Assembly (NCBI RefSeq): GCF_964204645.1
Contig: NC_134027.1
Coordinates: forward strand, 27,082,485 to 27,146,484
Length of the DNA stretch: 64,000 bases
DNA from: Tubulanus polymorphus
Lineage: Eukaryota > Nemertea > Palaeonemertea > Tubulaniformes > Tubulanidae
Direction: 5' to 3'
Shown here piece by piece: positions 13,521 through 59,914 of the stretch; the first letter of the stretch is position 1, and each line of letters opens with the position of its first letter. Both the position numbers and the translations under genes were made by a program. The notes below the pieces were generated by a model. That model did not search any database and had not been told where the DNA came from. It was given only the letters and a program-made list of their open reading frames with translations.

Positions 13521-15418
13521 ACCTGCCTTTTAGAGGCAACAGCAGAAATGTCAAACTTACCATAATTCTGATGAAACGGCGTGGAGAACTCGGCGCGCTG
13601 CTGTGAGAATGTAAAAATAGTACAGCGTTGCCCAATAAATAAGTGAATTTTCATTCTATGTAACTAGCACTGTTCATATATGTGAAATAATAAAATATTG
13701 TAGAAAAGAATTGTATTTATTCATCATTGGCTATGTACGGATTATTCAAAGACTATTACGGAAGTGGCTGAATAGCCACTTTGAATAACAATTTGGGAAA
13801 CCAACAGTTCTGAATGAGTGAATAAACAAACGAACGAACAAAAATCTACTTCTATTTTGAATCATATATCATCACTTGCATCCCATACCGCATGATAAAT
13901 GACGTCACCTCTATATACCCGTCATATGGAATACTGAACTTGACCGATTACTAGCACTGCCTTTTCAAAGTAATAACAATTTACTGTCACTGCCGTCCTC
14001 TTCTGCACTACTAGTTTTAAGTTCATCTTATTCATTGCCTATATCATTTTCCCCTTGGAATGAAACAAAAATGATAACTTATTTCTCCTAATCATCAGCC
14101 AGCTGGTCGTTTTAATAGCAGTTGATTTCTATATCTGCCGGGTCTATTACAGTCATGGGACCGTCTGGGTCAACTTTCAAGCTCAGCAGAAATAAACACG
14201 GAATCAATTTTGTATCCTAATATTTCAAAAAGTCCTTTAAGAAATCCTCATTGTGAAACTGGGCCCCAGCTTATCCGCTATAGATGAACTCTTCAACAAA
14301 ATATAACGATTATAAACATTCATTTTATGGAGAATTGTATTTTATTAACGACATAATTAATACAATAATAGTGAATACTGTTTATGCATTTCGCTAGGAT
14401 TATACTAAAGTTATAGCACCAAAATTAGAATTGACAAATTATGAAAAACATTGTGAATATATAATATGAATAGAAATAAACATGAATAATGAATATCATA
14501 ATCATCATCGCAATCATCTCCATCCCCATATTAAATCCTGTTCATATTGATCATCTTAATCTTCCATTGGTTATTGCTGCTGTTGCTGTAAATAAAATTC
14601 ACATTTAAAGAAAAAGTTACAAAATATTTCTATACTGTTTTGGAAAGGATCTTCTCTTTTGTACAGAGAGCTGCAGTCGACTCTTGGTGTCAGTAGATCT
14701 ATTGGAGGTTTTTCACTATCATACGGACACTAATAAAACCAATCAGGAAACAAGTTCTTCAAACTTTAGGGCTGTGCCGGTTACTGACGAAATCAAGTTT
14801 ATCGACTCACATGGTTTTTGATAATTTCCCGATATGATTGTTTTTAGTAGGCTAAGCGTGACTCGTGCTTACATCTTCAGTCGAACAGATCATCACCATC
14901 GTGGCGTTCATTGTCTATTACCAAAAATACATGAAGCATGTAATAGTAAGTATGCACAGGAAATAATGGCCCTTAAGCGTCTCGTTGCACTCGTAAAAAC
15001 TTACTATTCGGCGTCTAGTGGCACTTCGTAGCCGACGCTTCCTCAGCTAAATTCTCTGCCATAAAACTTACTATTCTGCGTCTCGTTGCACTCCTCAACC
15101 TGAGTTTTATTGGCGTTCTTGCATTCTGTAAGAGAATTCAGGGATTTATGACAAAATTGCAGTCGTCGAATGATTTACACTAAAACTCATCCAGATATCC
15201 ATGGTTAGTTATGGAACTTGATTGACTTAAACAAATTAGATATTTAACCCCCCCCCCCCCCCCCCGGTGGGGAGAAACAAAACCTAGGATAGTCCCAATT
15301 CCATCAGAATGTGTCAATGCGTTTATCCTTGGTTTAAATGTTTGAAGATGACCCAGCACCAAAGACCTATAAATATCTTACTTCATTCTAATGAAATGAC
15401 CTGCTTGTGTTCATTTAC
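13521..15418. other. Gap at left edge of the RRM exon locus
   Basis: No complete gene. 14480-14690 contains a minus-strand segment that mirrors 18500-18640 on the plus strand (see the candidate exon pair). 15248-15266 is a long poly-C run. The GGCGTC / TCGTTGCACTCGTAAAAACTTACTATTC words are repeated at about 14975-15090. Confidence 0.4.
14626..14682 (-). CDS. Candidate short exon, RRM end-like (minus copy)
   Basis: On the minus strand this stretch reads AAAAGAGAAGATCC, CAAAACAGTATAG and AAATATTTTGTAAC, matching the plus-strand copy at 18525-18571. In the plus copy the translation is KRRSIPKQYIEIFCN, where YIEIF recalls the RYIEVF ending of hnRNP H/ESRP-type RRMs. In this minus copy the frame differs and the acceptor is unclear, so it may be degraded. 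It lies downstream, in minus orientation, of the minus-strand N- and C-half exons. Confidence 0.25.
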
Positions 15419-15488
15419 CGGTGCTGGTGCTGGTTCTTCCGGAGCTTGTATGGCCGCTGGTTCCGGAGCTTGTACCGGTATGGCTTAC

Positions 15489-15597
15489 CTTCGATATTTT
15501 TAAAGACACATCAGTGCCATTTATCCTGTGGGGATTTGCCTCTATGATGCTAATCCCCACAGCGGCTGATACCGTCACAAAACAGTACCTTAGTGAT
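15489..15597 (-). CDS. RRM C-half exon, minus cluster A (intact)
   Basis: 109 nt, acceptor cattgtag/ATCACT, donor TCGAAG/gtaagcc. After one base completing the upstream codon it encodes 36 residues: SLRYCFVTVS (RNP1/beta3), AAVGISIIEANPHRING (alpha2) and TDVSLKISK (beta4). It is nearly identical in sequence to the plus-strand exon at 22841-22949. Upstream on its strand lies a TGCAGTAACTCC element found before all C-half exons. If the 15488 donor is ignored the frame stays open to a second donor at 15418, see the separate finding. Confidence 0.65.
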
Positions 15598-15852
15598 CTA
15601 CAATGAAAATATACATTACTCAGGAGTTGTAGGAGTTACTGCAATATAGAAGTAAATGTCTTTGTATAAAAAGGAAACATCAAGTTTCCGATGGGTTTTA
15701 ATGGATCAGTTAATCAGGTAAACAACTCAGCTGTGACGTGAAATACTCAGTGTTTATGATCTGAACTTCCCTTTATAATTCCTACCAACGTCTATATTAC
15801 TTAATTATGAACATTAAACACATTTGAAATAAAGAAAAAATTATAAACTTAC

Positions 15853-15966
15853 TGCTGCTTTCTGTTTTTAATAATGTACGCTTTTTATTTTTCCAAATGG
15901 TTTCCATGTTGTTTTTTTTATTTTTCTAGTATTTGAACTACCACGGAAGTAGAGTTTTGCCTCCAT
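15853..15966 (-). pseudogene. RRM N-half exon A5, degraded
   Basis: Relative of the N-half exons with MEAKLYFRGSSNTRKI at its start. The acceptor is CACAA instead of CACAG, the exon is 114 nt instead of 113, and the frame reaches a stop in the beta2 part (KSVHY then TAA). It is the most downstream and most diverged copy of minus cluster A; its nearest relative is 21724-21836. Confidence 0.6.
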
Positions 15967-16182
15967 TTGTGGAGTAAAGATGAGAATTATAAAACACAGC
16001 ATCCGTTTGATAAACAGGTTGAATATAAAATCATTCATTAACTATGAGATTGGTTCATTAATCAGCTAAACAACTCAACTGTCATGTGAAACACTCAGTG
16101 TTTATGATCTGAACTTCCCTTTTTTTATTACTTTATTATGAACAATAAGCACATTTGAAATAAAGAAAGATTATAAACTTAC

Positions 16183-16289
16183 TGCCCCTTTTTGTTTTTA
16201 ATAAAATAAATTTTTTTTATTTTCCCATACTTTTTTAATTGTGTGAGAATTTTTCTTCGGTTGGCTAAACCTCTGAAGTACAGATTCAT
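16183..16289 (-). CDS. RRM N-half exon A4 (intact)
   Basis: 107 nt between ctccacag and gtaagttt. It encodes MNLYFRGLANRRK (beta1 with RNP2-like LYFRGL), ILTQLKKYGK (alpha1) and IKKIYFIKNKKG (beta2), leaving CA of the next codon (phase 2). Joining to any C-half exon gives GQS followed by the RNP1 strand. Nearly identical to 20747-20853 on the plus strand. Confidence 0.65.
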
Positions 16290-16525
16290 CTGTGGAGTAA
16301 AGAAGAGAATTATAAAACACAGCATCCGTTTGATAAACAGGTTGAATATAAAATCATTCATTAACTATGAGATTGATACATTAATCAGCTAAACAACTCA
16401 ACTGTCATGTGAAACACTCAGTGTTTATGATCTGAACTTCCCTTTATAATTCCTACCAACGCCTATATTACTTAATTATGAACATTAAACACATTTGAAA
16501 TAAAGAAAAAAGATTATAAACTTAC

Positions 16526-16633
16526 TGCCCCTTTTTGTTTTTGATGAAAAAAACTTATTTTTCCATACTTTTTTAATTTAGTTTGAATTTTTCTGTGGTT
16601 AGCTGTTCCTCTAAAGTACAGATTACAATTCAT
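16526..16633 (-). pseudogene. RRM N-half exon A3, frameshifted
   Basis: Acceptor and donor are intact, but the exon is 108 nt instead of 113: five A residues are missing from the A-run after GGAAAAATA. The translation changes from IKKVFFIKNKK to ISFFHQKQK and the exon would exit in the wrong phase. Otherwise it matches 17193-17305. Confidence 0.65.
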
Positions 16634-16849
16634 CTGTGGAGTAAAGAAGAGAATTATAAAACACAGCATCCGTTTGATAAACAGGTTGAATATAAAATCA
16701 TTCATTAACTATGAGATTGATACATTAATCAGCTAAACAACTCAACTGTCATATGAAACACTCAGTGTTTATGATCTGAACTTCCCTTTTTTTATTACTT
16801 TATTATGAACAATAAACACATTTGAAATAAAGAAAGATTATAAACTTAC

Positions 16850-16956
16850 TGCCCCTTTTTGTTTTTAATAAAATAAATTTTTTTTATTTTCCCATACTTT
16901 TTTAATTGTGTGAGAATTTTTCTTCGGTTGGCTAAACCTCTGAAGTACAGATTCAT
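16850..16956 (-). pseudogene. RRM N-half exon A2, acceptor lost
   Basis: The 107-nt coding part is intact and nearly identical to 16183-16289, but the acceptor reads CTCCACGG instead of CTCCACAG, so the AG is gone. It would be skipped unless a nearby AG is used. Confidence 0.6.
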
Positions 16957-17192
16957 CCGTGGAGTAAAGAAGAGAATTATAAAACACAGCATCCGTTTGA
17001 TAAACAGGTTGAATATAAAATCATTCATTAACTATGAGATTGATACATTAATCAGCTAAACAACTCAACTGTCATGTGAAACACTCAGTGTTTATGATCT
17101 GAACTTCCCTTTATAATTCCTACCAACGCCTATATTACTTAATTATGAACATTAAACACATTTGAAATAAAGAAAAAAGATTATAAACTTAC

Positions 17193-17305
17193 TGCCCCTT
17201 TTTGTTTTTGATGAAAAAAACTTTTTTTATTTTTCCATACTTTTTTAATTTAGTTTGAATTTTTCTGTGGTTAGCTGTTCCTCTAAAGTAGAGATTACAA
17301 TTCAT
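17193..17305 (-). CDS. RRM N-half exon A1 (intact)
   Basis: 113 nt, acceptor ctccacag, donor gtaagttt. Encodes MNCNLYFRGTANHRK (beta1), IQTKLKKYGK (alpha1) and IKKVFFIKNKKG (beta2). It differs from the 107-nt type by two extra codons (Cys-Asn) at the start, keeping the length class 2 mod 3. It is the most upstream exon of minus cluster A. Confidence 0.65.
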
Positions 17306-17589
17306 CTGTGGAGTAAAGAAGAGAATTATAAAACACAGCATCCGTTTGATAAACAGGTTGAATATAAAATCATTCATTAACTATGAGATAGGTAACACTG
17401 GGTTCTGGTATTAATTTTCAATTCTGACAGAAATATAACTTAGCGTCTGACCATTTCGAATTTGCGTATAGTAATTTATTATGAATTAATATCGCGTAAA
17501 AGAATGTCAGAAGAGCGAACAAGAATGTACGTAGGCGTGAATGTAATATCTCAGCTACATTAAGTTTTCTGATATAGCTCTACGAGCGG

Positions 17590-17685
17590 CCATAGAACTC
17601 GTTCTATGGAGCGCCGTAGTGGATTGACCCGATAGCACAGCGGGTAACCTCCCGGTCTGACGTGTAGTAGTTCGTGTCTTAGAAA
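17590..17685 (+). repeat. tRNA-derived SINE fragment
   Basis: The run TAGCACAGCGGGTAACCTCC followed by CCGGTCTGACGTGTAGTAG and TTCGTGTC resembles a tRNA A box, anticodon arm and B box. It lies between the minus-strand cluster A and the plus-strand exon at 17866. Confidence 0.5.
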
Positions 17686-17865
17686 CCAGTGTCTCCACTC
17701 ACATTTTAACATTCCTTCTTAGCTCTCGAGGAACGAGCGAGTTATTACGAGCCTGTCGACATCGTGTATTCAAATATTTCAATAAAATATTTCATGTCTT
17801 TTATCGAATTATCAGTGATATATTCCTATCTCTGTTATTTTCGTAGAATTTTAACAAAGTTGACC

Positions 17866-18000
17866 ATGTCATCGACGGATGTCTTCAATCGCATCGATTA
17901 TATGTCGTTTAACCCGAGAAACAATGAAACAAATGCTCACATAAACGTACCGCAATTTTACATGAATTGGCTCAATGCCAACTTCATATGGCTGACAATG
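17866..18000 (+). CDS. Candidate 5' coding exon of the plus-strand RRM gene
   Basis: An ATG-led open segment of 45 codons ends in phase 0 at ACAATG/gtaaacc. It begins MSSTDVFNRIDYMSF and ends YMNWLNANFIWLTM. Codon use is balanced and unlike the AT-rich repeats around it. The phase would match the phase-0 start of the N-half exons, so it may be the constant first exon of the plus-strand array; no homology is recognised. The ORF stays open upstream, so the real start could differ. Confidence 0.4.
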
Positions 18001-18524
18001 GTAAACCAAAAACTTACTTTCGACTAAAATCTGTTCCATCATGTTTTATCTTCTACTTCTCTCAGAATCCAGTTCTCTTCCTATTCTTCATATTCATCTG
18101 CAATTGAAGAAAAAAGAAACAGTTCTTCAATATACAGGCAACTCTGCTCCGCTATAGGTACCAATAAACTTGATACCAGTAGCAATTGCTGAAATTGTTA
18201 TGTCGATAAAGACAAGAAATTGATGAAGACAATAATGAAATGGCAGCACAACTGAGGCATCAGAGATTAGATTTCAGGAAGATGAAATTTCAAATTTCAA
18301 TTAGCTAAATTAATTAATTAGCATATCTGGACAAGAAATATTCATCTAAACAAATAGCCTGAGTTAACCAACTGGAAAAGCAAGGATTCACTTACGACAC
18401 ACAGAAATTAAGAAACTACTATCAGAGCATTGTTTAATTGACGATAAAAATCATAGATGCTAAACGTGATTGTTCCACAACTCTAATCATCATCAAACTC
18501 TGCTGCTCTCTGCACAGAAGAGAA

Positions 18525-18571
18525 GATCCATCCCAAAACAGTATATAGAAATATTTTGTAACAGGTTCTTG
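18525..18571 (+). CDS. Candidate short exon, RRM end-like (plus copy)
   Basis: Between ctctgcacag and gttcttgt lies a 47-nt segment reading KRRSIPKQYIEIFCN plus two bases. YIEIF resembles the last strand of hnRNP H/ESRP-type RRMs. Downstream, tttcag at about 18590 precedes a coding-like DQLFSNSRDDYGDNNN run. Both parts have a mirror image at 14480-14690. The order relative to the plus-strand N-half exons is wrong for a simple downstream exon, so its gene membership is open. Confidence 0.3.
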
Positions 18572-18992
18572 TGAACTTATTTGATTTTCAGTGATCAACT
18601 ATTCAGTAACAGTCGAGATGATTATGGTGATAATAATAATTGCGTTATCTTTTATTCATGTTGTTTTTTTTGTACATGCATTACTAAAATTTATTCAACT
18701 TCCATTTCTTTATAGCTTCATAATGTCCATTTGGTGCCATTGACTTGATTGCAACCCACAAAATTTATGTGTGACATTTTTATGTAAGAGTTTGGGTTCG
18801 ATTTAGATTTTGCGTTCTCATAGCATCAAACTATGGAATGTAAGTTTTTAAACATACAAATGAAGCTAAAACTTTGCAGTGCCACAAGTTCAAAGAAAAT
18901 TTATATGATAATTCTAGAAGTGTTTGCTTAAGCAGCCACTGAAGAGTGACATAGTTTGATATTATAAAGTGTGAACAAACTCATCTCAACAT

Positions 18993-19704
18993 TGCAATTC
19001 AACGGGATAGGTGTGCACACCAAATGCAATTCAACAGGATAGTCGTACACACCAAATGCAGTTCAACGGGATAGGTGTGCACACCAAATGCAATTCAACG
19101 GGATAGGTGTGCACACCAAATGCAATTCAACAGGATAGTCGTACACACCAAATGCAGTTCAACGGGATAGGTGTGCACACCAAATGCAATTCAACGGGAT
19201 AGGTGTGCACACCAAATGCAATTCAACGGGATAGGTGTGCACACCAAATGCAATTCAACGGGATAGTCGTGCACACCAAATGCAGTTCAACGGGATAGGT
19301 GTGCACACCAAATGCAATTCAACGGGATAGGTGTGCACACCAAATGCAATTCAACGGGATAGGTGTGCACACCAAATGCAATTCAACGGGATAGGTGTGC
19401 ACACCAAATGCAATTCAACGGGATAGGTGTGCACACCAAATGCAATTCAACGGGATAGGTGTGCACACCAAATGCAATTCAACGGGATAGGTGTGCACAC
19501 CAAATGCAATTCAACGGGATAGGTGTGCACACCAAATGCAATTCAACGGGATAGGTGTGCACACCAAATGCAATTCAACGGGATAGGTGTGCACACCAAA
19601 TGCAATTCAACGGGATAGGTGTGCACACCAAATGCAATTCAACGGGATAGGTGTGCACACCAAATGCAATTCAACGGGATAGGTGTGCACACCAAATGCA
19701 ATTC
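18993..19704 (+). repeat. 32-bp minisatellite, about 22 copies
   Basis: Highly homogeneous array of CAATTCAACGGGATAGG, TGTGCACACCAAATG. Each unit contains the perfect 12-bp palindrome GGTGTGCACACC. A minority variant (CAACAGGATAGTCGTACACA) occurs near the left end at regular spacing, showing a higher-order pattern. It sits in the plus-strand gap between the candidate first exon and the first N-half exon. Confidence 0.95.
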
Positions 19705-19859
19705 TCCGACATAAACATTCCATGTGTACAATTCGATCACCTCATCCAGCACGATTCCAAAAAAGATAGAATAATCAACGACAAGTTTAGTTCAATTATT
19801 AACTATGGCTCTTACTGAGGGTAGAGACCGGTATCCCAATCTACCAAAGATAAAGACCG

Positions 19860-20330
19860 GCAACTAGTCTAAATCCCGGTCAATGCAGATAGACGCCGAT
19901 TGGTTCCAAGAATAACCAGTTTTTGATTGGTCCAGTATTCTTGGCGCATTGAACGTTTCGTACGGTTCATAATTCACTACGACAATAGACTTTAAAATAG
20001 GAGAGATAGATCAAACACAAATAAAAGAAAGGACGAAATAGAAATAAACAACACTGAAAAGAACAGCCAGTTTTTGATTGGTCCAGTACTCTTGGCACAT
20101 TGAACGTTTCGTACGGTTCACAATTCACTCCGAGATCGATCATAAATAGACCCTAGGCTAAAAATAAAAGAAAGAAGACAACGTTAGATACGACTGTGAA
20201 ATGTAAGTTTAGTTTGATTTTTGTTTCAAGGCCGACTTTAATTGATAAATGGGATGCCCATTAATCAATGTATCCGTTCTCCAATGAAATGTCAAATTTG
20301 TTCCATCGTAATCAGCCGCCATGTTTGCTA
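19860..20330 (+). repeat. Repeated module upstream of plus cluster B
   Basis: Two copies of CCAGTTTTTGATTGGTCCAG with TTGAACGTTTCGTACGGTTC (about 19917-19970 and 20068-20122), then GCCGACTTTAATTGATAAATG and GAAATGTCAAATTTGTTCCATC. The same modules reappear at 24840-25930, so this block has been duplicated along with the exons. Confidence 0.6.
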
Positions 20331-20403
20331 ATTAACTGATTTTATATTCAACCTGTTTATCAAACGGATGCTGTGTTTTATAATTCTCTTCTTTACTCCA
20401 CAG

Positions 20404-20510
20404 ATGAATCTGTACTTCAGAGGTTTAGCCAACCACAGAAAAATTCTAACTAAATTAAAAAAGTATGGAAAAATAAAAAAAGTTTTTTTCATTAAAAACA
20501 AAAAGCGCCA
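20404..20510 (+). CDS. RRM N-half exon B1 (intact)
   Basis: 107 nt, acceptor ctccacag, donor gtaagttt. Encodes MNLYFRGLANHRK, ILTKLKKYGK and IKKVFFIKNKKR with a phase-2 exit. First of the plus-strand N block. The upstream intron carries TTTTATATTCAACCTGTTTA about 65 nt before the acceptor, as in all its relatives. Confidence 0.65.
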
Positions 20511-20746
20511 GTAAGTTTATAATCTTTTTTCTTTATTTAAAATGTTTTTAATGTTCATAATTAAGTAATATAAGCGTTGGTAGGAATTATAAAGGGAAGT
20601 TCAGATCATAAACACTGAGTGTTTCACATGACAGTTGAGTTGTTTAGCTGATTAATGTATCAATCTCATAGTTAATGAATGATTTTATATTCAACCTGTT
20701 TATCAAACGGATGCTGTGTTTTATAATTCTCTTCTTTACTCCACAG

Positions 20747-20853
20747 ATGAATCTGTACTTCAGAGGTTTAGCCAACCGAAGAAAAATTCTCACACAATTA
20801 AAAAAGTATGGGAAAATAAAAAAAATTTATTTTATTAAAAACAAAAAGGGGCA
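20747..20853 (+). CDS. RRM N-half exon B2 (intact)
   Basis: 107 nt, encodes MNLYFRGLANRRK, ILTQLKKYGK and IKKIYFIKNKKG, phase-2 exit. Spaced 343 bp from B1. The intron between has the palindrome AAACACTGAGTGTTT. Confidence 0.65.
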
Positions 20854-21069
20854 GTAAGTTTATAATCTTTCTTTATTTCAAATGTGTTTATTGTTCATAA
20901 TAAAGTAATAAAAAAAGGGAAGTTCAGATCATAAACACTGAGTGTTTCACATGACAGTTGAGTTGTTTAGCTGATTAATGTATCAATCTCATAGTTAATG
21001 AATGATTTTATATTCAACCTGTTTATCAAACGGATGCTGTGTTTTATAATTCTCTTCTTTACTCCACAG

Positions 21070-21176
21070 ATGAATCTGTACTTCAGAGGTTTAGCGAACA
21101 GAAGAAAAATTCAAACTAAATTAAAAAAGTATGGGAAAATAAAAAAAGTTTTTTTCATTAAAAACAAAAAGCGCCA
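21070..21176 (+). CDS. RRM N-half exon B3 (intact)
   Basis: 107 nt, encodes MNLYFRGLANRRK, IQTKLKKYGK and IKKVFFIKNKKR, phase-2 exit. Spaced 323 bp from B2; it combines the first part of B2 with the second part of B1, suggesting gene conversion or unequal exchange. Confidence 0.65.
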
Positions 21177-21412
21177 GTAAGTTTATAATCTTTTTTCTTT
21201 ATTTAAAATGTATTTAATGTTCATAATTAAGTAATATAAGCGTTGGTAGGAATTATAAAGGGAAGTTCAGATCATAAACACTGAGTGTTTCACATGACAG
21301 TTGAGTTGTTTAGCTGATTAATGTATCAATCTCATAGTTAATGAATGATTTTATATTCAACCTGTTTATCAAACGGATGCTGTGTTTTATAATTCTCTTC
21401 TTTACTCCACAG

Positions 21413-21525
21413 ATGAATTGTAATCTGTACTTTAGAGGTTCAGCTAACCACAGAAAAATTCTAACTAAATTGAAAAAGTATGGAAAAATAAAAAAAGTTT
21501 TTTTCATTAAAAACAAAAAGCGCCA
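21413..21525 (+). CDS. RRM N-half exon B4 (intact)
   Basis: 113-nt type with the extra Cys-Asn codons: MNCNLYFRGSANHRK, ILTKLKKYGK and IKKVFFIKNKKR, phase-2 exit. Spaced 343 bp from B3. Confidence 0.65.
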
Positions 21526-21723
21526 GTAAGTTTATAATCTTTTTTCTTTATTTAAAATGTGTTTAATGTTCATAATTAAGTAATATAGACGTTGGTAGGA
21601 ATTATAAAGGGAAGTTCAGATCATAAACACTGAGTGTTTCACATGACAGTTGAGTTGTTTAGCTGATTAATGAACCAATCTCATGTGTTGCTGTGTTTTA
21701 TAATTCTCTTCTTTATTTCACAG

Positions 21724-21836
21724 ATGGAGGCTAAACTCTACTTCAGGGGAAGATCGAATCCAAAAAAAATAAAAAATATTTTTTAAAAATTAGGAGAAAT
21801 AAAAAAAGTTTATTTCATTAAAAACAAAAAGGGGCA
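21724..21836 (+). pseudogene. RRM N-half exon B5 with stop codon
   Basis: 113 nt with good splice sites (tttcacag and gtaagttt). It begins MEAKLYFRGRSNPKKI but has an in-frame TAA in the alpha1 helix (KNIF then stop), after which the frame continues KLGEIKKVYFIKNKKG. One substitution away from an open exon. Confidence 0.6.
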
Positions 21837-22347
21837 GTAAGTTTAAAATCTTGATTTCAAATGTGTTTAATGTTCATAATAAAGTAATAGGTGTTGGTAG
21901 GAATTATAAACAACAAGACGCAGAATAGTAAGTTTTATGGTCGAGAATTTAAGAAATCAAAATCTCAATCAGTAATGTTTTTCTAGCCTGTTTGTGACCT
22001 CATATGGTGTATGAGGTGGTTAAATATGGAACCGAATCCCCCGTGTTCAGTGTCATTTTGTCTCGTTTAAACAAGTTCCCAAAGCCTCAAATAAAATCAA
22101 GAAATTACAGCCTCATAAAGAAGGCGCTTGGAATCAAAAATAAAAACAGGCAGACTTTTTACTCAAATCAATAGTTCAATTTACATGACATAAGAATAAA
22201 GGCATCGCCAGGAATGTTTAAAGAAGGTTCAGATTGTGAGATGTTGTGTCACACATGACACCATTTGCTAATTGACTGATTCTATATTCAACATGTTTAT
22301 CACATCCAGCTGTGTTTTATTTATAATTTTCTCATTCAATTCCACAG

Positions 22348-22469
22348 ATGGATTCGATTTTATTTGGAAAAAAAATATCAACTAAGACAACAGTGGCAAG
22401 TTAGAAAAAAAAATTAAAAAAATTTGGCCAAATCAAGAAGGCCGTAGTTATAAGGAATAAATACGGGCA
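22348..22469 (+). pseudogene. RRM N-half exon B6, diverged, with stop codon
   Basis: 122 nt (still 2 mod 3) between ttccacag and gtaaattt. Begins MDSILFGKKIS; an in-frame TAG occurs before the alpha1 end, and then KLKKFGQIKKAVVIRNKYG follows in frame. Old, decayed member whose flanking intron signals are still recognisable. Confidence 0.5.
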
Positions 22470-22840
22470 GTAAATTTATGACTTTTTACTGAAATTACTG
22501 TACATGAATAAAGGCATCGCCAGGAATGTTTAAAGGGGTTTCAGATTGTAAGCATTTGTGCTACATATAACAGTAGTTTATCAGGGGTTTACTAAAACGC
22601 ATAAATCCAGTGGAGTAAAATGGGTCCATCAAATCTTTCCTTTGAACCCTGCGTCCAAAACAGCAATTTTACAAGACAATGGCAAAAGGAAATTTCCTGG
22701 GCCCGGTTTTATAGACTGCCGGGTATAGTGATATACTTAAAACACTACCCATAATTGGTTATAATAAACAACTAGCCATTTACAACTCCTAAACTGCAGT
22801 AACTCCTACAACTCCTGAGCAATGTATATTTTCATTGTAG

Positions 22841-22949
22841 ATCACAAAGATATTGTTTTGTGACGGTATCAGCCGCTGTGGGGATTAGCATTATAGATGC
22901 AAATCCCCACAGGATAAATGGCACTGATGTGTCATTTAAATTATCGAAG
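22841..22949 (+). CDS. RRM C-half exon B-C1 (intact)
   Basis: 109 nt, acceptor cattgtag, donor gtaagtca. Encodes SQRYCFVTVS (RNP1), AAVGISIIDANPHRING and TDVSFKLSK. Near-twin of the minus-strand exon 15489-15597. Upstream element CTGCAGTAACTCC present. Confidence 0.65.
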
Positions 22950-23006
22950 GTAAGTCATCATGATTATTTGATAATTCTATCCAAGTCCTCATCATTATTA
23001 TTGTAG

Positions 23007-23116
23007 ATCACAGAGATATGGATTTATTCTATGTTCAGCGGTAACAGTTGAACAAATAATCTGCGAATCCCCATCACATTGATTGGGAAAATATAGTTTT
23101 TAAATTGTCTAAAGAG
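23007..23116 (+). pseudogene. RRM C-half exon B-C2, frameshifted
   Basis: 110 nt instead of 109. Begins SQRYGFILCSAVTVEQII, then one extra base throws the frame to a stop; in the shifted frame ANPHHIDWENIVFKLSKE follows. Splice sites attgtag and gtaagct are kept. Confidence 0.6.
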
Positions 23117-23324
23117 GTAAGCTATCATGAAATTTTATTCTTCAGTAATACCATCCAATCAGATGTATGGGATTCATTTGAAACATGTCTGGAATTTAAT
23201 ATCAATAAATACTCACTATGCCTAATACGTCAGACAATTAAAGGGATGCTGTACATTAATAAGAGACATTCCCTAAACTGCAGTAATTCATCCCGAGTTC
23301 TAAATGTATGTATTATTATTGTAG

Positions 23325-23436
23325 ATCAATGAAATACGGATTCATTGTCTGTGATACAGACACGGCAGAAAAAATTATCACTGCAAATCCCCATCAAATT
23401 GACGGGGATATCATCTATTTTAAATTGTCTAAAGAG
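23325..23436 (+). CDS. RRM C-half exon B-C3 (intact)
   Basis: 112 nt, encodes SMKYGFIVCDTD (RNP1 KYGFIV), TAEKIITANPHQIDGD (alpha2) and IIYFKLSKE (beta4), entering in phase 2 and leaving in phase 0 at GAG/gtaagct. Confidence 0.7.
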
Positions 23437-23585
23437 GTAAGCTATCATGTAGTTTTATTCTTCAGTAATACCATCCAAGGTATGTTCCATATTGAATACC
23501 GGTATTGTTCAAGTAATTACTTTCTAATTGGTATGGGGCCCAAAAGCAAGATATAGAAAAACAAATAATATCTGTTCCTTCTTCA

Positions 23586-23640
23586 TCAGCAAACGTGGTA
23601 GAAACCATAATTAGCGAAAACCAACATCATATAGATAGGT
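23586..23640 (+). pseudogene. Remnant of an RRM C-half exon
   Basis: A short piece reads VVETIISENQHHIDR directly before gtaagctatcata, the donor context of the C-half exons. The RNP1 part is missing. Confidence 0.4.
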
Positions 23641-23968
23641 AAGCTATCATAATATATTTAATGTTCATAATAAAGGAATATAGACGTTGGCAGAAGTTTT
23701 AAACTTGTGTCAGTTAAGTTTTGGCATTTACTGCATCAAAACTTGTTTAGCTGAAATATACCACTCATAGTTAATGAATGATTTTATATTCAACCTGTTT
23801 ATCAAGATTATAAATCTCGATTATATCAGCCTGCCTTCTGTGCACCAAACTGGGAAGATTTGTCACGTGAGACTTGATTTATCGGGGGTTTAATGACTGA
23901 TTTTATATTCAACTTGATTATTAAAAGGATGCTGTGTTTTATTTATAATTTTCTCCTTTCTTCCATAG

Positions 23969-24094
23969 ATGGATTATTGCAAAATGAGATTTTCGGATAT
24001 AACATTAAAAACAAGGGTAAAAGATATTAAAGAAAAAATAAAATCATTTGGGGAAATAAAAAAAAATTGTTATCATAAAAGACAAAAACGGACG
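23969..24094 (+). pseudogene. RRM N-half exon B7, diverged and frameshifted
   Basis: 126 nt between ttccatag and gttagtat. Begins MDYCKMRFSDITLKTRV, KDIKEKIKSFGEIKK, then an extra A in an A-run shifts the frame; the shifted frame continues IVIIKDKNGR, which is a good beta2 and loop. Without that base it would be 125 nt, the expected length class. Confidence 0.45.
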
Positions 24095-24554
24095 GTTAGT
24101 ATCGATGAATCATTTTTCTAAAGTTGTTTATAAGGTTGTAAAAATATAGGTGTTGGCAGGAACTTTTAAAAGGGGTTCAGATTGGTGTAGTAAGCACTTG
24201 TATCACACATGACGGCGTGGTGTGGTCAGGTCTGACTGTTCTTAAAACAGACGAATCCACGGGACTTGTGACGGAGAAAATTTGAAAAATTGAGGTTCTG
24301 AGATGCAATATGAAAGGTTACTAGTAGCTTCTAATACTAAAAATCAAAGTTTAGAAACTTAGAAATTAAGGCCAAGAATTTAATATACAAAATTTTCATC
24401 TTGTTCACCTTCCATGCATAGCAGAAATAGTCAACCTAATTCTACTTTCATCTCGATATCTTTTTCATCTTGATATCTTGTAGATATCTGGATAAGAACA
24501 AGTTTAGTGTAAACCATTCAAGGAATTGAATTTTCTCCTGAATTCTCTTACAGA

Positions 24555-24614
24555 TTCCACCAAGAAGAACACCCATGAAGCAGCGGCTACGAAGCGCGAC
24601 CCGCTTAAGGAATG
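24555..24614 (+). CDS. Candidate basic exon inside the RRM locus
   Basis: 60 nt bounded by ctcttacag and gtaagttt, reading IPPRRTPMKQRLRSATRLRN, twenty residues of which seven are Arg or Lys. Both ends are phase 0, compatible with the exits of C-half exons. It has richer GC than its surroundings. Could add a nuclear-localising basic tail after an RRM; no copy was found elsewhere in the window. Confidence 0.35.
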
Positions 24615-24699
24615 TAAGTTTAGAAATTTAGAAATTATGGCTGAGAATACATATTTTCTTGGGGAGTAGAAGGTGGTTTAATGAAGCTGGAGCAGAAAT

Positions 24700-25930
24700 A
24701 GTCAACCTAATTCTTCTTAGCAGGTTCTCTCAAAAACACACAAAACTTCTGACGATAATACGATAATCAACACTTGATCAAACGACAAAATATAACAAGA
24801 TATAAACGACAAAAACTTAAACTTTAAGTTCAATTTAATCTTTGCTTAGCACAAGTTTGCAGTAATCGGCTGGCCTATGCAAGATAGATGTTGATTGGTT
24901 CCAATATTAGGCAGTTTTTGATTTGTCTAGCCTCTTCTTAGTGGGTTCTCTCAAAAACACACAACTTCCGACAGACATACTAACTATACGTACAAGACTC
25001 ACTCTTGCGATAGAAAAAACTATTATTTAAAAAAAAAAGATTAACCTAAAAGTAAGTTCAATTTAATCTTTGCTTAGCACAAGTTTGCAGTAATCGGCTG
25101 GCTTATGCAAGATAGATGTTGATTGGTTCCTATATTAGGCAGTTTTTGATTTGTCTAGCCACTTCTTGGCGGGTTATCTCAAAAACACACAAATCTTCCG
25201 ATGAACATACCTACTAAACGCACTACTTACAGCTCTCGCGACGGAAAAAAACTATTTAAAAAAAAAAGATTTACTTAAAGTAATTTCAATTTAATCTTTG
25301 CTTAGCACAAGGCCGACTTCTAGAACATGAGAAGCCCATTAATCAATGGAGGTCTATATAAATTATAGGCCTATCCGGTCCCAACGAAATGTCAAGTTTG
25401 TTTCATCGTAACCAAACCAAGCGCCATATAGGAACATAAACAACCTGTATCGAGGTGCCGCCGAGCCAGAAGTTCACGGCTCATACTGAACTGAATCAAC
25501 TGAGTAAATCGATTTTAACGCTACCAAACTATAGATCTACAGTGCGTTCCATAAAAAATAAAAAAACAACCTCTCCAAAATCAACTAATTTATAAATTAT
25601 GGCTTTACAATGAAGTGAATTGGAATCCAATTACGTTGATAATCTTCAATAGTGTTTTTGTTAAAAATAAGAAATAATTGGGTCACCCATAAATGTTTCA
25701 GCGCACACGAATAAAATTTCTAGCTGAATTCTTAGCGGGTTCTCTCAAAAACACCTCGACCGTCGATTACTAGACTTAAATATACAGAAATACATATTTA
25801 ATTTTTCTATTATTAAAAAGATAAAAGACACTTAAAAGTAAGTTCAATTTAATCTTTGCTTCAAGGCAGACTAAAGCATGAGAAGCCTATTAATGGATAA
25901 AGGTCTATCCGTTCCCAACTGAACATACAA
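24700..25930 (+). repeat. Tandem/dispersed non-coding modules between the N and C blocks
   Basis: Three to four copies of AAGTTCAATTTAATCTTTGC, TTAGCACAAGTTTGCAGTAATC, GATGTTGATTGGTTCC and GGGTTCTCTCAAAAACAC at about 24713, 24940, 25170 and 25735, plus GAGAAGCCCATTAATCAATG at 25330 and 25890. No open coding potential is seen. They are homologous to 19860-20330. Confidence 0.65.
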
Positions 25931-26034
25931 CATTTTGGCTTTTTTCCTAACAGCCATTATCAGATATATGGGATTCATTTGAAATCAATAAATACCCATA
26001 TGCTGAGTTCTAAATGTGTGTATTATTATTGTAG

Positions 26035-26100
26035 ATCAAAGAAATACGGATTCGTAGTTGTGGCCCCAGGAACGGCACAAAAAATCATCATCGGAAAAGA
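26035..26100 (+). pseudogene. Truncated RRM C-half exon
   Basis: Starts after attgtag with SKKYGFVVVAPGTAQKIII, then breaks into unrelated sequence before the NPH part; no donor is present. Confidence 0.5.
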
Positions 26101-26271
26101 CTGCTCTCAATATACGTAGAGGTTGTGGTAGAAACAAAAGCATTCTAACACAAGCATCTCTCTTTTCATAGCCTCATCTCCTTCAGCTGAATGTATAAAT
26201 TAATCAAATATAAAAGGGAAAGCAGCAGAAACAGAAACAGCCCCTGTAGCAGAAACAGAAACAGCCCCTGT

Positions 26272-26272
<1 letters not shown>

Positions 26273-26355
<83 letters not shown>
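26273..26355 (+). repeat. (CAG)n trinucleotide repeat, about 27 copies
   Basis: Pure AGC/CAG run flanked by interrupted AGAAACAGAAACAGCCCCTG copies. The minus-strand poly-Leu frame across it has no support as a gene. A shorter CAG run follows at about 26560. Confidence 0.9.
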
Positions 26356-26718
26356 TGAACCTGGGCCAATATGCATACATCTCTATTTTCGTGGCCTCAT
26401 CTTCAGCTGAACGTATAAATCAATCAAATGCAATAGGGAAAGACCTACTCTCAATATTGAGGTTGATGGAAAAAAGTTAAGAATCCAAACAGAAACATCT
26501 TTTCATGGCCTCATCTCCTTCAGCAGAATGTTAAAATTATCATATGCAAAAAGGAAGGCAGCAGCAGCAGCAGCCGCCCTCATCAGGTGTATGGGGTTCA
26601 TTTGGAATCAATAAAACCTCAGTCAGGCAATTAAAGGGGTGCTGTATCATTATTAGAGGACATTCCCTAAACTGCAGTAATTCATCCTGAGTTCTAAATG
26701 TATGTATTATTATTGCAG

Positions 26719-26830
26719 ATCAATGAAATACGGATTCATTGTCTGTGATACAGACACGGCAGAAAAAGTAATCGCCGCAAATCCCCATCAGATTGATGGG
26801 GATATCATTTATTTTCAATTGTCGAAAGAG
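26719..26830 (+). CDS. RRM C-half exon B-C5 (intact)
   Basis: 112 nt, acceptor attgcag, donor gtaagct. Encodes SMKYGFIVCDTD, TAEKVIAANPHQIDGD and IIYFQLSKE. Confidence 0.68.
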
Positions 26831-27023
26831 GTAAGCTATCATATAGATTTAATATTCTTCTGTAATACCATCCAATCAGATGTATGGGATTCATTTGGGA
26901 TCAATAAATACTCACTATGCCTAATTGTCAGACAATTAAAGGGGTGCTGTATCATTATTAGAGGACATTACCTAAACTGCAGTAATTCATCCCGAGTTCT
27001 AAATGTATGTATTATTATCGTAG

Positions 27024-27143
27024 ATCAAAGAAATATGGATTTGTGGTTGTGTCCCCAGAAACGGCACAAAGAATGATAAATGGTAATATCCCCATCACAT
27101 TGATGGGGAAATTATTCATTTTGAATTGTCTAAAGTCAAAGAG
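27024..27143 (+). pseudogene. RRM C-half exon B-C6, frameshifted
   Basis: 120 nt. Begins SKKYGFVVVSPETAQRMI; two extra bases before CCCCATCACATTGATGGGG shift the frame, which then would read PHHIDGEIIHFELSKVKE in the ancestral phase. Splice sites kept. Confidence 0.6.
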
Positions 27144-27334
27144 GTAAGCTATCATGTAGTTTTATTCTTCTGTAATACCATCCAATCAGATCTATGGGAT
27201 TCATTTGGGATCAATAAATACTCACTATGCCTAATACGTCAGGCAATTAAAGGGGTGCAGTATCATTAATAAGAGACATTCCCTAAACTGCAGTAATTCA
27301 TCCAGAGATCTAAATGTATGTATTATTTTTGTAG

Positions 27335-27446
27335 ATCATTGAAATACGGATTTGTTGTTGTCGACGAAAAAACAGCAGAAATAATTATCGCTGCAAATCC
27401 CCATCACATTGATGGGGATATCATTTATTTTAAATTTTCTAATGAG
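27335..27446 (+). CDS. RRM C-half exon B-C7 (intact)
   Basis: 112 nt. Encodes SLKYGFVVVDEK, TAEIIIAANPHHIDGD and IIYFKFSNE. Differs from B-C3 and B-C5 chiefly in the RNP1 strand and the following loop (VVVDEK versus IVCDTD), the surface that would contact RNA. Confidence 0.68.
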
Positions 27447-27595
27447 GTAAGCTATCATGTAGATTGATTCTTCAGTAATACCATCCAATCAGATGTATGG
27501 GATTCAATTAAAGGGATGCTGTTTCATTAATAAGAGACATTCCCCAAACTGCAGTAATTCATCCTGAGATCTAAATGTATGTATTATTATTGTAG

Positions 27596-27738
27596 ATCAA
27601 TGAAATACGGATTTGCCATATGTGATGCAGACACTGCACAAAAAATTTTTATGTGATGCAGACACTGCACAAAAAATTTTTCAAGCAAATCCCCATCAAA
27701 TTGATGGGGAAAATGTCTATTTTGAATTATCTAAAGAG
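27596..27738 (+). pseudogene. RRM C-half exon B-C8 with 31-bp internal duplication
   Basis: 143 nt = 112 + 31. The segment TGTGATGCAGACACTGCACA followed by AAAAATTTTT is present twice in tandem, shifting the frame. In the second copy CDADTAQKIFQANPHQIDGE and NVYFELSKE are open. Confidence 0.65.
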
Positions 27739-28020
27739 GTAAGCTATCATGTAATTTTATTCTCTGGTAATACCATCCAAGGTGTATGTTTGTACAGTAG
27801 CCGTTCTTATGAGTCGGGGTACGTCAGAGGTAAGCTATCATGTAGATTGATTCTTCTGTAATACCATCCAATCAGATCTATGGGATTCATTTGGGATCAA
27901 TAAATACTCACTATGCCTAATACGTCAGGCAATTAAAGGGGTGCAGTATCATTAATAAGAGACATTCCCTAAACTGCAGTAATTCATCCTGAGTTCTAAA
28001 TGTATGTATTATTATTGTAG

Positions 28021-28132
28021 ATCAATGAAATATGGATTCATTGTATGTGCTGGAGACACGGCAGAAAAAATAATCGCCGCAAATCCCCATCAGATTGATG
28101 GGGATATCATTTATTTTCAATTGTCGAAAGAG
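28021..28132 (+). CDS. RRM C-half exon B-C9 (intact)
   Basis: 112 nt. Encodes SMKYGFIVCAGD, TAEKIIAANPHQIDGD and IIYFQLSKE. Virtually identical to 28648-28759, which lies 627 bp away in a two-exon higher-order repeat. Confidence 0.68.
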
Positions 28133-28326
28133 GTAAGCTTTCATATAGATTTAATATTCTTCTGTAATACCATCCAATCAGATCTATGGGATTCATTTGG
28201 GATCAATAAATACTCACTATGCCTAATACGTCAGACAATTAAAGGGGTGCAGTATCATTAATAAGAGACATTCCCTAAACTGCAGTAATTCATCCCGAGT
28301 TCTAAATGTATGTATTATTATTGTAG

Positions 28327-28438
28327 ATCATTGAAATACGGATTTGTTGTTGTCGACGAAAAAACAGCAGAAATAATTATCGCTGCAAATCCCCATCACA
28401 TTGATGGGGATATCATTTATTTTAAATTTTCTAATGAG
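28327..28438 (+). CDS. RRM C-half exon B-C10 (intact)
   Basis: 112 nt, same protein as 27335-27446 (SLKYGFVVVDEK type, ending FKFSNE). It is the alternating partner in the recent two-exon duplication. Confidence 0.68.
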
Positions 28439-28647
28439 GTAAGCTATCATGTAGATTGATTCTTCAGTAATACCACCCAATCAGATGTTTGGGATTCATT
28501 TGAAACATGTCTGGAATTTAATATCAATAAATACTCACTATGCCTAATACGTCAGACAATTAAAGGGGTGCTGTATCATTAATAAGAGACATTCCCTAAA
28601 CTGCAGTAATTCATCCCGAGTTCTAAATGTATGTATTATTATTGTAG

Positions 28648-28759
28648 ATCAATGAAATATGGATTCATTGTATGTGCTGGAGACACGGCAGAAAAAATAA
28701 TCGCCGCAAATCCCCATCAGATTGATGGGGATATCATTTATTTTCAATTGTCGAAAGAG
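28648..28759 (+). CDS. RRM C-half exon B-C11 (intact)
   Basis: 112 nt, same protein as 28021-28132 (SMKYGFIVCAGD type). Splice sites attgtag and gtaagct. Confidence 0.68.
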
Positions 28760-28955
28760 GTAAGCTATCATATAGATTTAATATTCTTCTGTAATACCAT
28801 CCAATCAGATCTATGGGATTCATTTGGGATCAATAAATACTCACTATGCCTAATACGTCAGGCAATTAAAGGGGTGCTGTATCATTAATAAGAGACATTC
28901 CCTAAACTGCAGTAATTCATCCTGAGTTCTAAATGTATGTGTATTGTTATTGTAG

Positions 28956-29064
28956 TTCATTAAAACATGGGTTAGTGATTGTATCCGCCGATGTGGCGGC
29001 AAAAATCATTGCCGCCAACCCGCATATTATTGACGGGAAGAATGTCCAGTTTAGATGGATGCAG
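28956..29064 (+). CDS. RRM C-half exon B-C12, diverged but intact
   Basis: 109 nt. Encodes SLKHGLVIVSAD, VAAKIIAANPHIIDGK and NVQFRWMQ, entering in phase 2 and leaving in phase 0. Codons are GC-richer than in the other copies (GCCGCC, GCGGCA), and no stop or indel is present despite clear divergence, suggesting long-standing constraint. It is the last plus-strand C-half exon. Confidence 0.65.
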
Positions 29065-29892
29065 GTAAGCTACCATGTAGTAATATTCTCTATCAGAGGT
29101 ATGCTTCATAAAGAATATATAACCATACAGTAGGGTACGGATAAGTCAGACACGTCCAACTCAGATATACACATATGTCGATGAATACACCAACCCAAAT
29201 CACAGAGATGGGAGGAATATTAAATCCCGCTATGCAAAACAGGGTTAAGGGTATAACAGCTATAGAGACATTCACAACTCCTAAACTGCAATAACTCATC
29301 CTCCTCCTAAATGTGTATCATGTAGATGGATTCACTGCTCTTCAAATGAATGAATAGTTGACAGCTATAACCCGAAATGCAGTGTCCATTTGATAGTAAT
29401 GGTGTTGGTTTGGAAGAGTGTCAAGATTGTAGCGATATCGGGAGTGGATCAGGAAAGTTATTTGAGGCAGAGCAATAAATGCGAACGCAAAGTATTCAAG
29501 AAGTACATCACTAGTTACTGCTGTCGTCAAAACCTTGATTCCGTAAACAGACAGATGCGATTACAAAGTGCAAATAAAATATTTTCTTACCTTCTTCATT
29601 TTCCAAGCAACCCCTGTTCCTCATTCTTTTGATTCTAGTTCATTCATTTTCTTTCGGAAGTTATCAATTGCTAAAATAAGACATGAAGTTGATCGTTTTT
29701 GTTCTCCCTCAAGGATTAAGAATTTAAGATTTAGTTGTTATCATTTACCTTGTACATGCTCCAAACTGCAAAAATGCCGATTGAGATTTCTACAGTTGAC
29801 CTAATTTCTGTGTCCTGTAAGAGAAATTCAGGAATTTGTGAGAAAATCGCGTACTTACTAGGATGCACAAACTCTGATAATAAATAGCTTAC
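29065..29892. other. Turning point between plus and minus C-half exons
   Basis: Remnants of C-half flanks (CTCCTAAACTGCAATAACTC at about 29279, ATCATGTAGATGGATTCACT at 29327) are seen but no intact exon. No other gene is recognised. After this stretch the C-half copies continue on the opposite strand. Confidence 0.4.
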
Positions 29893-30004
29893 CTCCTTTT
29901 GAAAGTTCAAATATTATATTTCCCCATCAATTTGATGGGGATTATCAGCAATTATATTGTGAGCTGTGTCTTTTGAACATACAATGAATCCACATTTCAA
30001 TGAT
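29893..30004 (-). pseudogene. RRM C-half exon M-C4 with stop
   Basis: 112 nt with good splice sites. Reads SLKCGFIVCSKDTAHNII then ADNPHQIDGEI and a TAA; compensating single-base insertions distort the beta4 part. Confidence 0.55.
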
Positions 30005-30210
30005 CTACAATAATAATACATTCACATGTTTAGAACTCAGGATGAATTACTGCAGTTTAGGGAATGTCTTTTATTAATGATACAGCACCCCTTTAATTGT
30101 CTGACGTATAGTGAGTATTTATTGATATTAAATTCCAGACATGTTTCAAATGAATCCCATACATCTGATTGGATGGTATTACTGAAGAATAAAACTACAT
30201 GATAGCTTAC

Positions 30211-30322
30211 CTTGTGAGCCAGTTCAAAAACTACATTATACCCATCAATGTGATGGGGATTTGCTTCTATAATTGCTTCAGCCGTTTCTGGTACCACAAC
30301 AACGAATCCGTAGTGTTGAGAT
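30211..30322 (-). CDS. RRM C-half exon M-C1 (intact)
   Basis: 112 nt. Encodes SQHYGFVVVVPE, TAEAIIEANPHHIDGY and NVVFELAHK. Distinct protein variant from the plus-strand copies, with open frame and intact sites. Confidence 0.65.
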
Positions 30323-30516
30323 CTACAATAATAATTCATACATTTAGAACTCAGTATGAATTACTGCAGTTTAGGGAATGTCTCTTATTAATGATACAGC
30401 ACCCCTTTAATTGCCTGACGTATTAGGCATAGTGAGTATTTATTGATCCCAAATGAATCCCATACATCTGATTGGATGGTATTACAGAAGAATATTAAAT
30501 CTACATGATAGCTTAC

Positions 30517-30628
30517 CTCTTTCGACAATTGAAAATAAATGATATCCCCATCAATCTGATGGGGATTTGCGGCGATTATTTTTTCTGCCGTGTCTGTATC
30601 ACAGACAATGAATCCGTATTTCATTGAT
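30517..30628 (-). CDS. RRM C-half exon M-C2 (intact)
   Basis: 112 nt. Encodes SMKYGFIVCDTD, TAEKIIAANPHQIDGD and IIYFQLSKE; nearly identical to plus-strand 26719-26830, so the two strands exchanged sequence recently. Confidence 0.65.
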
Positions 30629-30819
30629 CTACAATAATAATACATACATTTAGAACTCAGGATGAATTACTGCAGTTTAGGGAATGTCTCTTATTAATGA
30701 TACAGCACCCCTTTAATTGCCTGACGTATTAGGCATAGTGAGTATTTATTGATCCCAAATGAATCCCATAGATCTGATTGGATGGTATTACAGAAGAATA
30801 AATCTACATGATAGCTTAC

Positions 30820-30931
30820 CTCATTAGATAATTTAAAACGTTCATTTTCCCCATCAATCTGGTGGGGATTACCATTGATGATGTTTTGTGTCGTGTCTGG
30901 CGAACAGACAATGAATCAATGTTTCTTTGAT
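30820..30931 (-). pseudogene. RRM C-half exon M-C3 with stop in RNP1
   Basis: 112 nt, good splice sites. RNP1 reads SKKH-stop-FIVC: the glycine codon GGA has become TGA. The remainder, SPDTTQNIINGNPHQIDGEN, is open. Confidence 0.6.
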
Positions 30932-31419
30932 CTACAATAATAATAATACATACATTTAGAAATCAGGATGAGGACGATTAACTGCATCCTTAAGGGATTT
31001 TCTCGAAACTTGGTAAAATGAAGTCAACATTACAATATACACACATTTAGAACTCAGTCATGTGGAACACTCGGCTCTTATACAACATCTTATATCCTTA
31101 ACCCCTTTAAAATTCCTGATGATGCCTATATTCTTGTATAATGATCGAACACTGAACCCTCATTCAGGGTCTGATCTAAGCACTTCTCCGATTGCCCGGG
31201 ATAAGTATATTCTCATCAGGGCAAGTAGGTTATCATTACCCGGGCTAGTGCAATTTCACAAAGCTTTTTTTCCCCACTTGATACAACGGATGATAGTGCC
31301 ACCAATCGGACTGCCTGTGTAAGGCAAGCAGCTTTTGGAGGGGGCAAGCAAAATTCCTGATAATATTGATAATTTTGAGCATTAAACACATTTGATATAA
31401 AAAAAGATTATAAACTTAC

Positions 31420-31534
31420 TGCCCCTTTTTGTTCGTGATTATATAGGCCTTTTTTTATCTTCTTCCATATTATTTTTTATCGTTCTGCCAGTGGTTTTGA
31501 CATCCAAACCACTGGCGAATAACTTGCAAAACAC
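31420..31534 (-). pseudogene. RRM N-half-like exon, right minus cluster, degraded
   Basis: 115 nt between tttcacag and gtaagttt. Begins VFCKLFASGLDVKTTGRTI and ends in the familiar AACAAAAAGGGGCA, but an in-frame stop interrupts the beta2 part. The intron signals match those of the other N-half exons. Confidence 0.45.
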
Positions 31535-31756
31535 CTGTGAAATAAAGAGAATTATAAAACACAGCATCCGTTTGATAAACAGGTTGAATATAAAATCATT
31601 CATTAACTATGAGATTGATACATTAATCAGCTAAACAACTCAACTGTCATGTGAAACACTCAGTGCTTACGATCTGAACTTCCCTTTATAATTCCTACCA
31701 ACTTTATTATGAACATTAAATAGATTTGATATTTAAAAAAAAGATTATAAATTTCC

Positions 31757-31840
31757 TGCCCATTTTTGTTTTTAATAACATAGGCCTTTTTATCGATATT
31801 TTTTATTTGATATTCCCCGAAAGTAGAGTCTTGAATCCAT
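31757..31840 (-). pseudogene. RRM N-half exon, right minus cluster, donor lost
   Basis: 84 nt after ctccacag. Begins MDSRLYFRGISNKKYR and then a stop; part of alpha1 is deleted and the donor reads GCAGGAAAT instead of GCAGTAAGT. Confidence 0.5.

Positions 31841-53539: not shown

Positions 53540-59914
<6,375 letters not shown>

Follow-up and report, generated by a model that had tools for sequence, protein, structure and literature searches.

Can an animal genome assemble a repertoire of RNA-binding domains from interchangeable half-domain exons? This question is raised by a locus of the nemertean Tubulanus polymorphus, located within a 64,000-nucleotide (nt) stretch of contig NC_134027.1 that we refer to as the window (C3:27082485-27146484 of the searched genome, which comprised 267.8 Mb in 77 contigs). 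A first-pass annotation had described here numerous exons encoding either the N-terminal or the C-terminal half of an RNA recognition motif (RRM), and had proposed that joining one of many N-halves to one of many C-halves would generate a family of RRMs. Splice phases, profile matches and substitution patterns are consistent with transcripts that join one N-half to one C-half exon, the exons being used as alternatives; we give this combinatorial splicing about an even chance.

Layout of the half-RRM array

Using tblastn with half-domain probes followed by inspection, we identified 14 N-half and 18 C-half copies or pieces between 15.4 and 31.9 kb, on both strands. The number of N-half exons agreed with the first-pass annotation, which had also recognized the C-half array but counted 17 members rather than 18, two of which are short pieces. 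The halves do lie in blocks and not as alternating complete domains, as previously described; however, instead of a single array there are three blocks in inverted orientation on both strands, with repeat units of ~300 nt and inverted arms of 724 nt (92%) and 669 nt (98%). Both splice sites (AG/GT) and an open frame are retained by 6 of the 14 N-half and 11 of the 18 C-half copies, while acceptor loss, stops, frameshifts or truncation have broken the others. The N/C units also seem to include a basic linker exon, short terminal exons and promoter-like repeats. The features are as follows, in window coordinates; individual exons are named below by half and first position.

14350..14585, minus: terminal exon of copy A (QQQQ, stop) and 3' untranslated region, from acceptor and joined frame; end approximate
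15072..15125, minus: basic linker exon of copy A (NARTPIKLRLRSATRRRI), phase 0-0
15489..15597, minus: C-half exon, open
15854..15966, minus: N-half exon, dead (acceptor AA, stop)
16183..16289, minus: N-half exon, open
16526..16633, minus: N-half exon, dead (5-nt deletion)
16850..16956, minus: N-half exon, acceptor lost (GG)
17193..17305, minus: N-half exon, open
19883..20202, plus: putative promoter/leader-like stretch before the plus-strand N block, with GATTGGT boxes; donor GTAAGTT at 20203
20404..20510, plus: N-half exon, open
20747..20853, plus: N-half exon, open
21070..21176, plus: N-half exon, open
21413..21525, plus: N-half exon, open
21724..21836, plus: N-half exon, one in-frame stop
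22348..22469, plus: N-half exon, in-frame stop (frame by eye)
22841..22949, plus: C-half exon, open
23007..23116, plus: C-half exon, frameshift
23325..23436, plus: C-half exon, open
23586..23640, plus: C-half piece
23969..24094, plus: N-half exon, open, wrong end phase (0 instead of 2)
24554..24613, plus: basic linker exon (IPPRRTPMKQRLRSATRLRN), phase 0-0
24712..25861, plus: putative promoter/leader-like repeats in tandem, ahead of the main C block, with GTAAGTT donors at 25052 and 25838
26036..26120, plus: C-half piece
26719..26830, plus: C-half exon, open
27024..27143, plus: C-half exon, frameshift
27335..27446, plus: C-half exon, open
27596..27738, plus: C-half exon, disrupted by an internal duplication of 31 nt
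28021..28132, plus: C-half exon, open
28327..28438, plus: C-half exon, open (same protein as 27335)
28648..28759, plus: C-half exon, open (same protein as 28021)
28956..29064, plus: C-half exon, open
29326..29349, plus: possible terminal exon (MDSLLFK, stop), by eye
29600..29670, minus: terminal exon of the minus-strand block (QLITSERK, stop); end approximate
29749..29814, minus: exon with linker-type acceptor (DTEIRSTVEISIGIFAVWSMYK)
29893..30004, minus: C-half exon, stop
30211..30322, minus: C-half exon, open
30517..30628, minus: C-half exon, open
30820..30931, minus: C-half exon, stop
31419..31533, minus: N-half remnant, dead
31758..31840, minus: N-half remnant, dead (internal deletion, donor lost)

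The open N exons encode five kinds of protein that differ little, and the open C exons nine kinds that differ more. The minus-strand block at 29.6-31.9 kb holds two open C exons (30211-30628) and no open N exon, both upstream N copies being dead. The stretch just upstream of the copy A terminal exon has a homologue at 18500-18570. A 32-bp minisatellite of 22 copies (18993-19704) separates the divergent copies A (minus strand) and B (plus strand), and a GCA/CAG run at 26221-26360 could encode an Ala/Pro/Glu/Thr tract.

Joining of the halves and their probable origin

The open N exons (107 or 113 nt) run from ag/ATG to CA/gtaag in phase 0 to 2, and the open C exons (109 or 112 nt) from tag/A TCA to GAG/gtaagc in phase 2 to 0, with C28956 starting with T. 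The boundary between them falls just before RNP1, in the loop between strands beta2 and beta3 where the first-pass annotation had placed it. All 66 pairings of an open N with an open C exon (6 x 11) keep the frame and end in phase 0. N-N-C chains, built with one C exon, stop right after the junction codon in 36 of 36 cases, and all 121 N-C-C chains, built with one N exon, also stop, so that a full product could come only from one N and one C. The array thus consists of tandem homologous exons whose phases bar double inclusion, as in a Dscam-type mutually exclusive cluster. A complete reading is offered by copy A on the minus strand, leading from N17193 through C15489 and the basic linker to QQQQ and a stop. 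In cis, the plus strand could provide 24 domains (4 N x 6 distinct C) and the minus-strand copy at 14.5-17.4 kb two; the proposed family of RRMs has fitting phases and halves that match RRMs when joined, but its repertoire would be far below 14 x 17.

The 24 plus-strand cis pairs and the two joins of copy A with linker and tail (n = 26) were compared with Pfam RRM_1, a check suggested in the first-pass annotation, and no joined pair failed to match: all 26 were recovered at an expectation value (E) of 1 or less, the best at 1.1e-4, versus one of ten misjoined controls (E 0.0055). The scores straddle the curated RRM_1 cut-off of 20.7 bits, with 22.5 for N20747+C22841 and 19.7 for N20404+C23325, and weak matches to other families occur too, e.g., TerL_ATPase in 4 of 26 joins. 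The best relatives of solved structure were hnRNP A2/B1 (E 7e-5 with one join; 5e-6 with a profile of joins) and hnRNP A1. When three joins were globally aligned with RRM1 of hnRNP A1, using what we take to be its human sequence, z was 4.8 to 7.9, with LYFRGL falling on RNP2 and YGF on RNP1. The RNP aromatics are accordingly present as LYF in RNP2 and YGF in RNP1; by eye, C28956 has H and L in RNP1, and C15489 and C22841 have YCF. Neither a single join nor the alignment of all 26 retrieved a relative at E<=0.01 in protein database searches.

A probable source of these exons is found in the same genome. An hnRNP A/B-like gene on the minus strand of contig C6 (8.754-8.756 Mb) has its RRM1 split at the place that divides N from C in the array, also in phase 2 and before RNP1. 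Its N-half exon starts with ag/ATG and its C-half exon ends in phase 0 after Glu, the ends being deduced from sequence, and the PHxIDG motif is shared as well. Given the matching boundaries and phases, the array exons correspond one by one to the two RRM1 exons of this gene, from which they likely descended. The hnRNP A/B-like gene differs in having a single copy of each half, a second RRM thereafter, and no array. The founder would then have been a small gene derived from an hnRNP A/B-type RRM1, comprising a leader, N-half, C-half, basic linker and short tail, and its two half exons would have multiplied separately into blocks. Most likely, one transcript links one N and one C. The encoded RRM protein would be small (94-96 residues in the case of copy A), with an RNA face set mostly by the chosen C exon, and we take exon choice within one pre-mRNA as the most likely route.

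A second, diverged array of C-half, N-half and basic linker exons is located on the same contig, 25 Mb away (C3:1548.2-1560.7 kb). Its C half is 43-58% identical to that of the window, and motif scans of one 10-kb piece revealed eight copies of each half, of which five N and four C are open, while four C copies end in a shifted frame. Most copies lie on one strand, with further ones on the minus strand. RRM_1 was the best family for three of three joins, all below the cut-off, and the RNP2 aromatic is missing by eye. A 286-nt repeat with a TATA-like element and TGACGT (L046:2343-2628 and 7301-7586; 98% identical) precedes both plus-strand C blocks of this locus. On its minus strand, an Ala-rich exon-like stretch lies between C and basic linker, and a TTAGGG-type interstitial telomere-like repeat stands beside it (L047:5780-5850), both by eye.

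Among the best-scoring candidates obtained with DNA and protein probes, no third array was found, and the genome matches to a join were all half exons at the two loci, with no intronless copy. Two other clusters of RRM half-hits were inspected and set aside: C8:11.65 Mb, which we take to be PABP-like, and C2:5.33 Mb, presumably a further RRM gene, whose intron lies elsewhere. At C8:11.655-11.668 Mb there are two similar tandem genes, presumably PABP-like. The array intron pattern was not found in the viral contigs searched. Ordinary genes in the window include PIG-M-like (4549-5151), chromodomain (39501-39818), Vps4-like (53769-58905, with AAA, MIT and Vps4_C pieces) and ankyrin/SOCS box (61371-62522) genes; no tRNAs were found in it, and Rfam gave no match at the gathering score in 13-34 kb.

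Exon diversity and competing explanations

Substitutions were counted along minimum spanning trees of the open exons of the window. In N exons, 16 of 29 changes were synonymous (fraction expected 0.237; P 2.6e-4), and in C exons 32 of 76 (fraction expected 0.247; P 6.5e-4), two saturated branches with 44-45 differences being left out of the latter; the window exons have thus evolved as coding sequence. Positive selection was rejected as the cause of exon divergence in the window, where divergence at synonymous sites exceeds that at nonsynonymous ones.

The introns present a different picture. In 12 chosen pairs (five N, seven C), intron identity is 91-100%, and 11 of the pairs diverge significantly more at synonymous sites. 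The five N pairs have 0 of 150 upstream intron differences versus a synonymous divergence of 0.18-0.33; introns of the seven C pairs differ by 2.7-8.7%, versus 0.30-0.46 at synonymous sites in six pairs, the seventh being without contrast. The contrast weakens in four wider sets whose flanks take in array ends (Fisher P for third positions versus introns, 5e-6, 0.009, 3e-4 and 0.02). When 6 x 4 chosen exons were compared across the two loci, third codon positions differed at 56%, while 9.6% of ~95 aligned sites upstream of C exons differ, gaps not counted, and 17% within 50 nt downstream. Trees of C exons and upstream introns group the locus-2 exons but have weakly supported deep nodes and were not used. 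The synonymous excess together with near-identical introns suggests that diverse exons persisted while introns were homogenized. According to PMC6071210, introns beside mutually exclusive exons are unusually conserved, and constraint on splicing elements may thus add to the intron identity.

The strongest competitor of combinatorial splicing is a birth-and-death cluster of a small hnRNP-derived gene, in which each copy would use one N and one C and the extra exons would be by-products of unequal exchange, either passengers or dying. We consider this a real possibility, although well short of an even chance. Such a cluster would accommodate the 8 of 14 N and 7 of 18 C copies that are broken or pieces, the inverted and scrambled blocks, the recurrence of identical exons (N16183=N16850=N20747, C27335=C28327 and C28021=C28648), the frame-shifted half of the motif-found C copies at the second locus, and dead copies almost as constrained as live ones. 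It accommodates less readily that a single strand block contains several kinds of open N exon and of open C exon, with their splice sites preserved and synonymous changes in excess, that the exchange homogenizing the introns spread no single exon type, and that arrays were kept at a second locus.

Alternative promoters could instead choose N or C blocks, in place of exon choice in one pre-mRNA, in the manner of the protocadherin genes, where choice is made by alternative promoters. The ATG at the start of the open N exons would fit, as would the promoter-like repeats before the N block and main C block, marked by the leader donors at 20203, 25052 and 25838, and the TATA-like 286-nt repeat of the second locus; these repeats may indeed be promoters. 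However, a 3' splice acceptor, needless for first exons, is kept by 6 of 6 open N and 11 of 11 open C exons, and the repeats precede blocks, not single exons, making this explanation improbable.

Still less probable is that trans-splicing, known for mod(mdg4) in Drosophila, joins N and C halves of different transcripts, including those from opposite strands: C30211 and C30517, open on the minus strand in a block without an open N, and C blocks with promoter-like repeats of their own point that way, but recent N loss explains the orphan C exons equally well. Least probable of all, the inverted arrays could yield double-stranded RNA as a small-RNA source with residual coding potential, which the inverted arms would suit, but the synonymous excess and phase rule indicate protein and most locus-2 copies share one strand.

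Several observations nevertheless weigh against combinatorial splicing. Almost half of the copies (15 of 32) are dead or pieces, their order in the locus is partly scrambled, and the N-half proteins barely differ among copies. No open N exon lies between the main C block and the promoter-like repeats that it follows, and linkers precede the downstream C block in the second locus. A genome-wide RRM_1 search gave 127 matches at E<=0.001, none of them in either array; a single half exon is thus too weak for the profile. Nor does the intron pattern hold throughout: between C15489 and C22841, divergence is lower in the exon (7%) than it is in the two flanks (13% and 56%), and for N21724 exon and flanks diverge to the same extent. 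The ratio of nonsynonymous (pN) to synonymous (pS) differences between dead and intact C copies is 0.46-0.59, near the 0.45 of intact C, with 0.63 between two dead copies and 0.63 for N21724, and at the second locus pN exceeds pS in two of six open pairs; selection may therefore be past or relaxed. Finally, no convincing docking site was found in the stretches scanned: in a limited search, one of 12 target/query pairs beat all its 12 shuffles, as expected by chance. A candidate 10-bp pairing of CTGCAGTAAY with the C-exon 3' splice site (96.7% of cells, 18 distinct sequences) has one covarying pair between loci, but so do 463 of 500 shuffles; of eight folds, only one clearly outperforms shuffles and three have the full helix as their optimum, and C22841 and C15489 do not stand out. 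This hairpin over the C acceptor is only a lead.

Combinatorial splicing would imply that several exons are used alternatively, by mutually exclusive choice, giving products with different RNA targets. The fuller proposal, that two-block exon libraries at two loci build both RRM halves, possibly joined in trans, with selection keeping their diversity amid intron homogenization, is one we advance tentatively and consider somewhat doubtful. If true, it would represent a programmable RNA-binding repertoire in an animal.

Relation to known systems

Among titles and abstract beginnings of the openly accessible literature, we found no system of RRMs with exon arrays or mutually exclusive exons. The coexistence of similar introns with different exons has a counterpart in the primate L/M opsin genes, where, as a gibbon study indicates, gene conversion homogenizes introns and selection keeps exons different (PMC3213168); those are two whole genes with no exon array. 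The intron-identical, exon-diverse pattern of the array offers a natural test of selection keeping an exon library apart versus gene conversion.

The alternative exons of Dscam encode parts of Ig domains. As in Dscam, the putative alternative exons of the array described here stand in tandem within one gene, in blocks set apart from each other. In Drosophila Dscam, exons are chosen via docking/selector RNA pairing and conserved flanking introns are typical, according to PMC6071210; the present array differs in lacking a detected docking site and in the multiplication of the two halves of a single small RNA-binding domain. The nearest case appears to be U2AF1, whose exons Ab and 3 are mutually exclusive within an RRM-like fold (UHM), with transcripts carrying both or neither containing stops that lead to nonsense-mediated decay, as described in PMC5224494. 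The logic is similar, although U2AF1 has two variants of one exon and not blocks of both halves. If the exons of T. polymorphus are used alternatively, the diversity that exon arrays give to cell-surface receptors would also reach an RNA-binding domain divided into two selectable halves.

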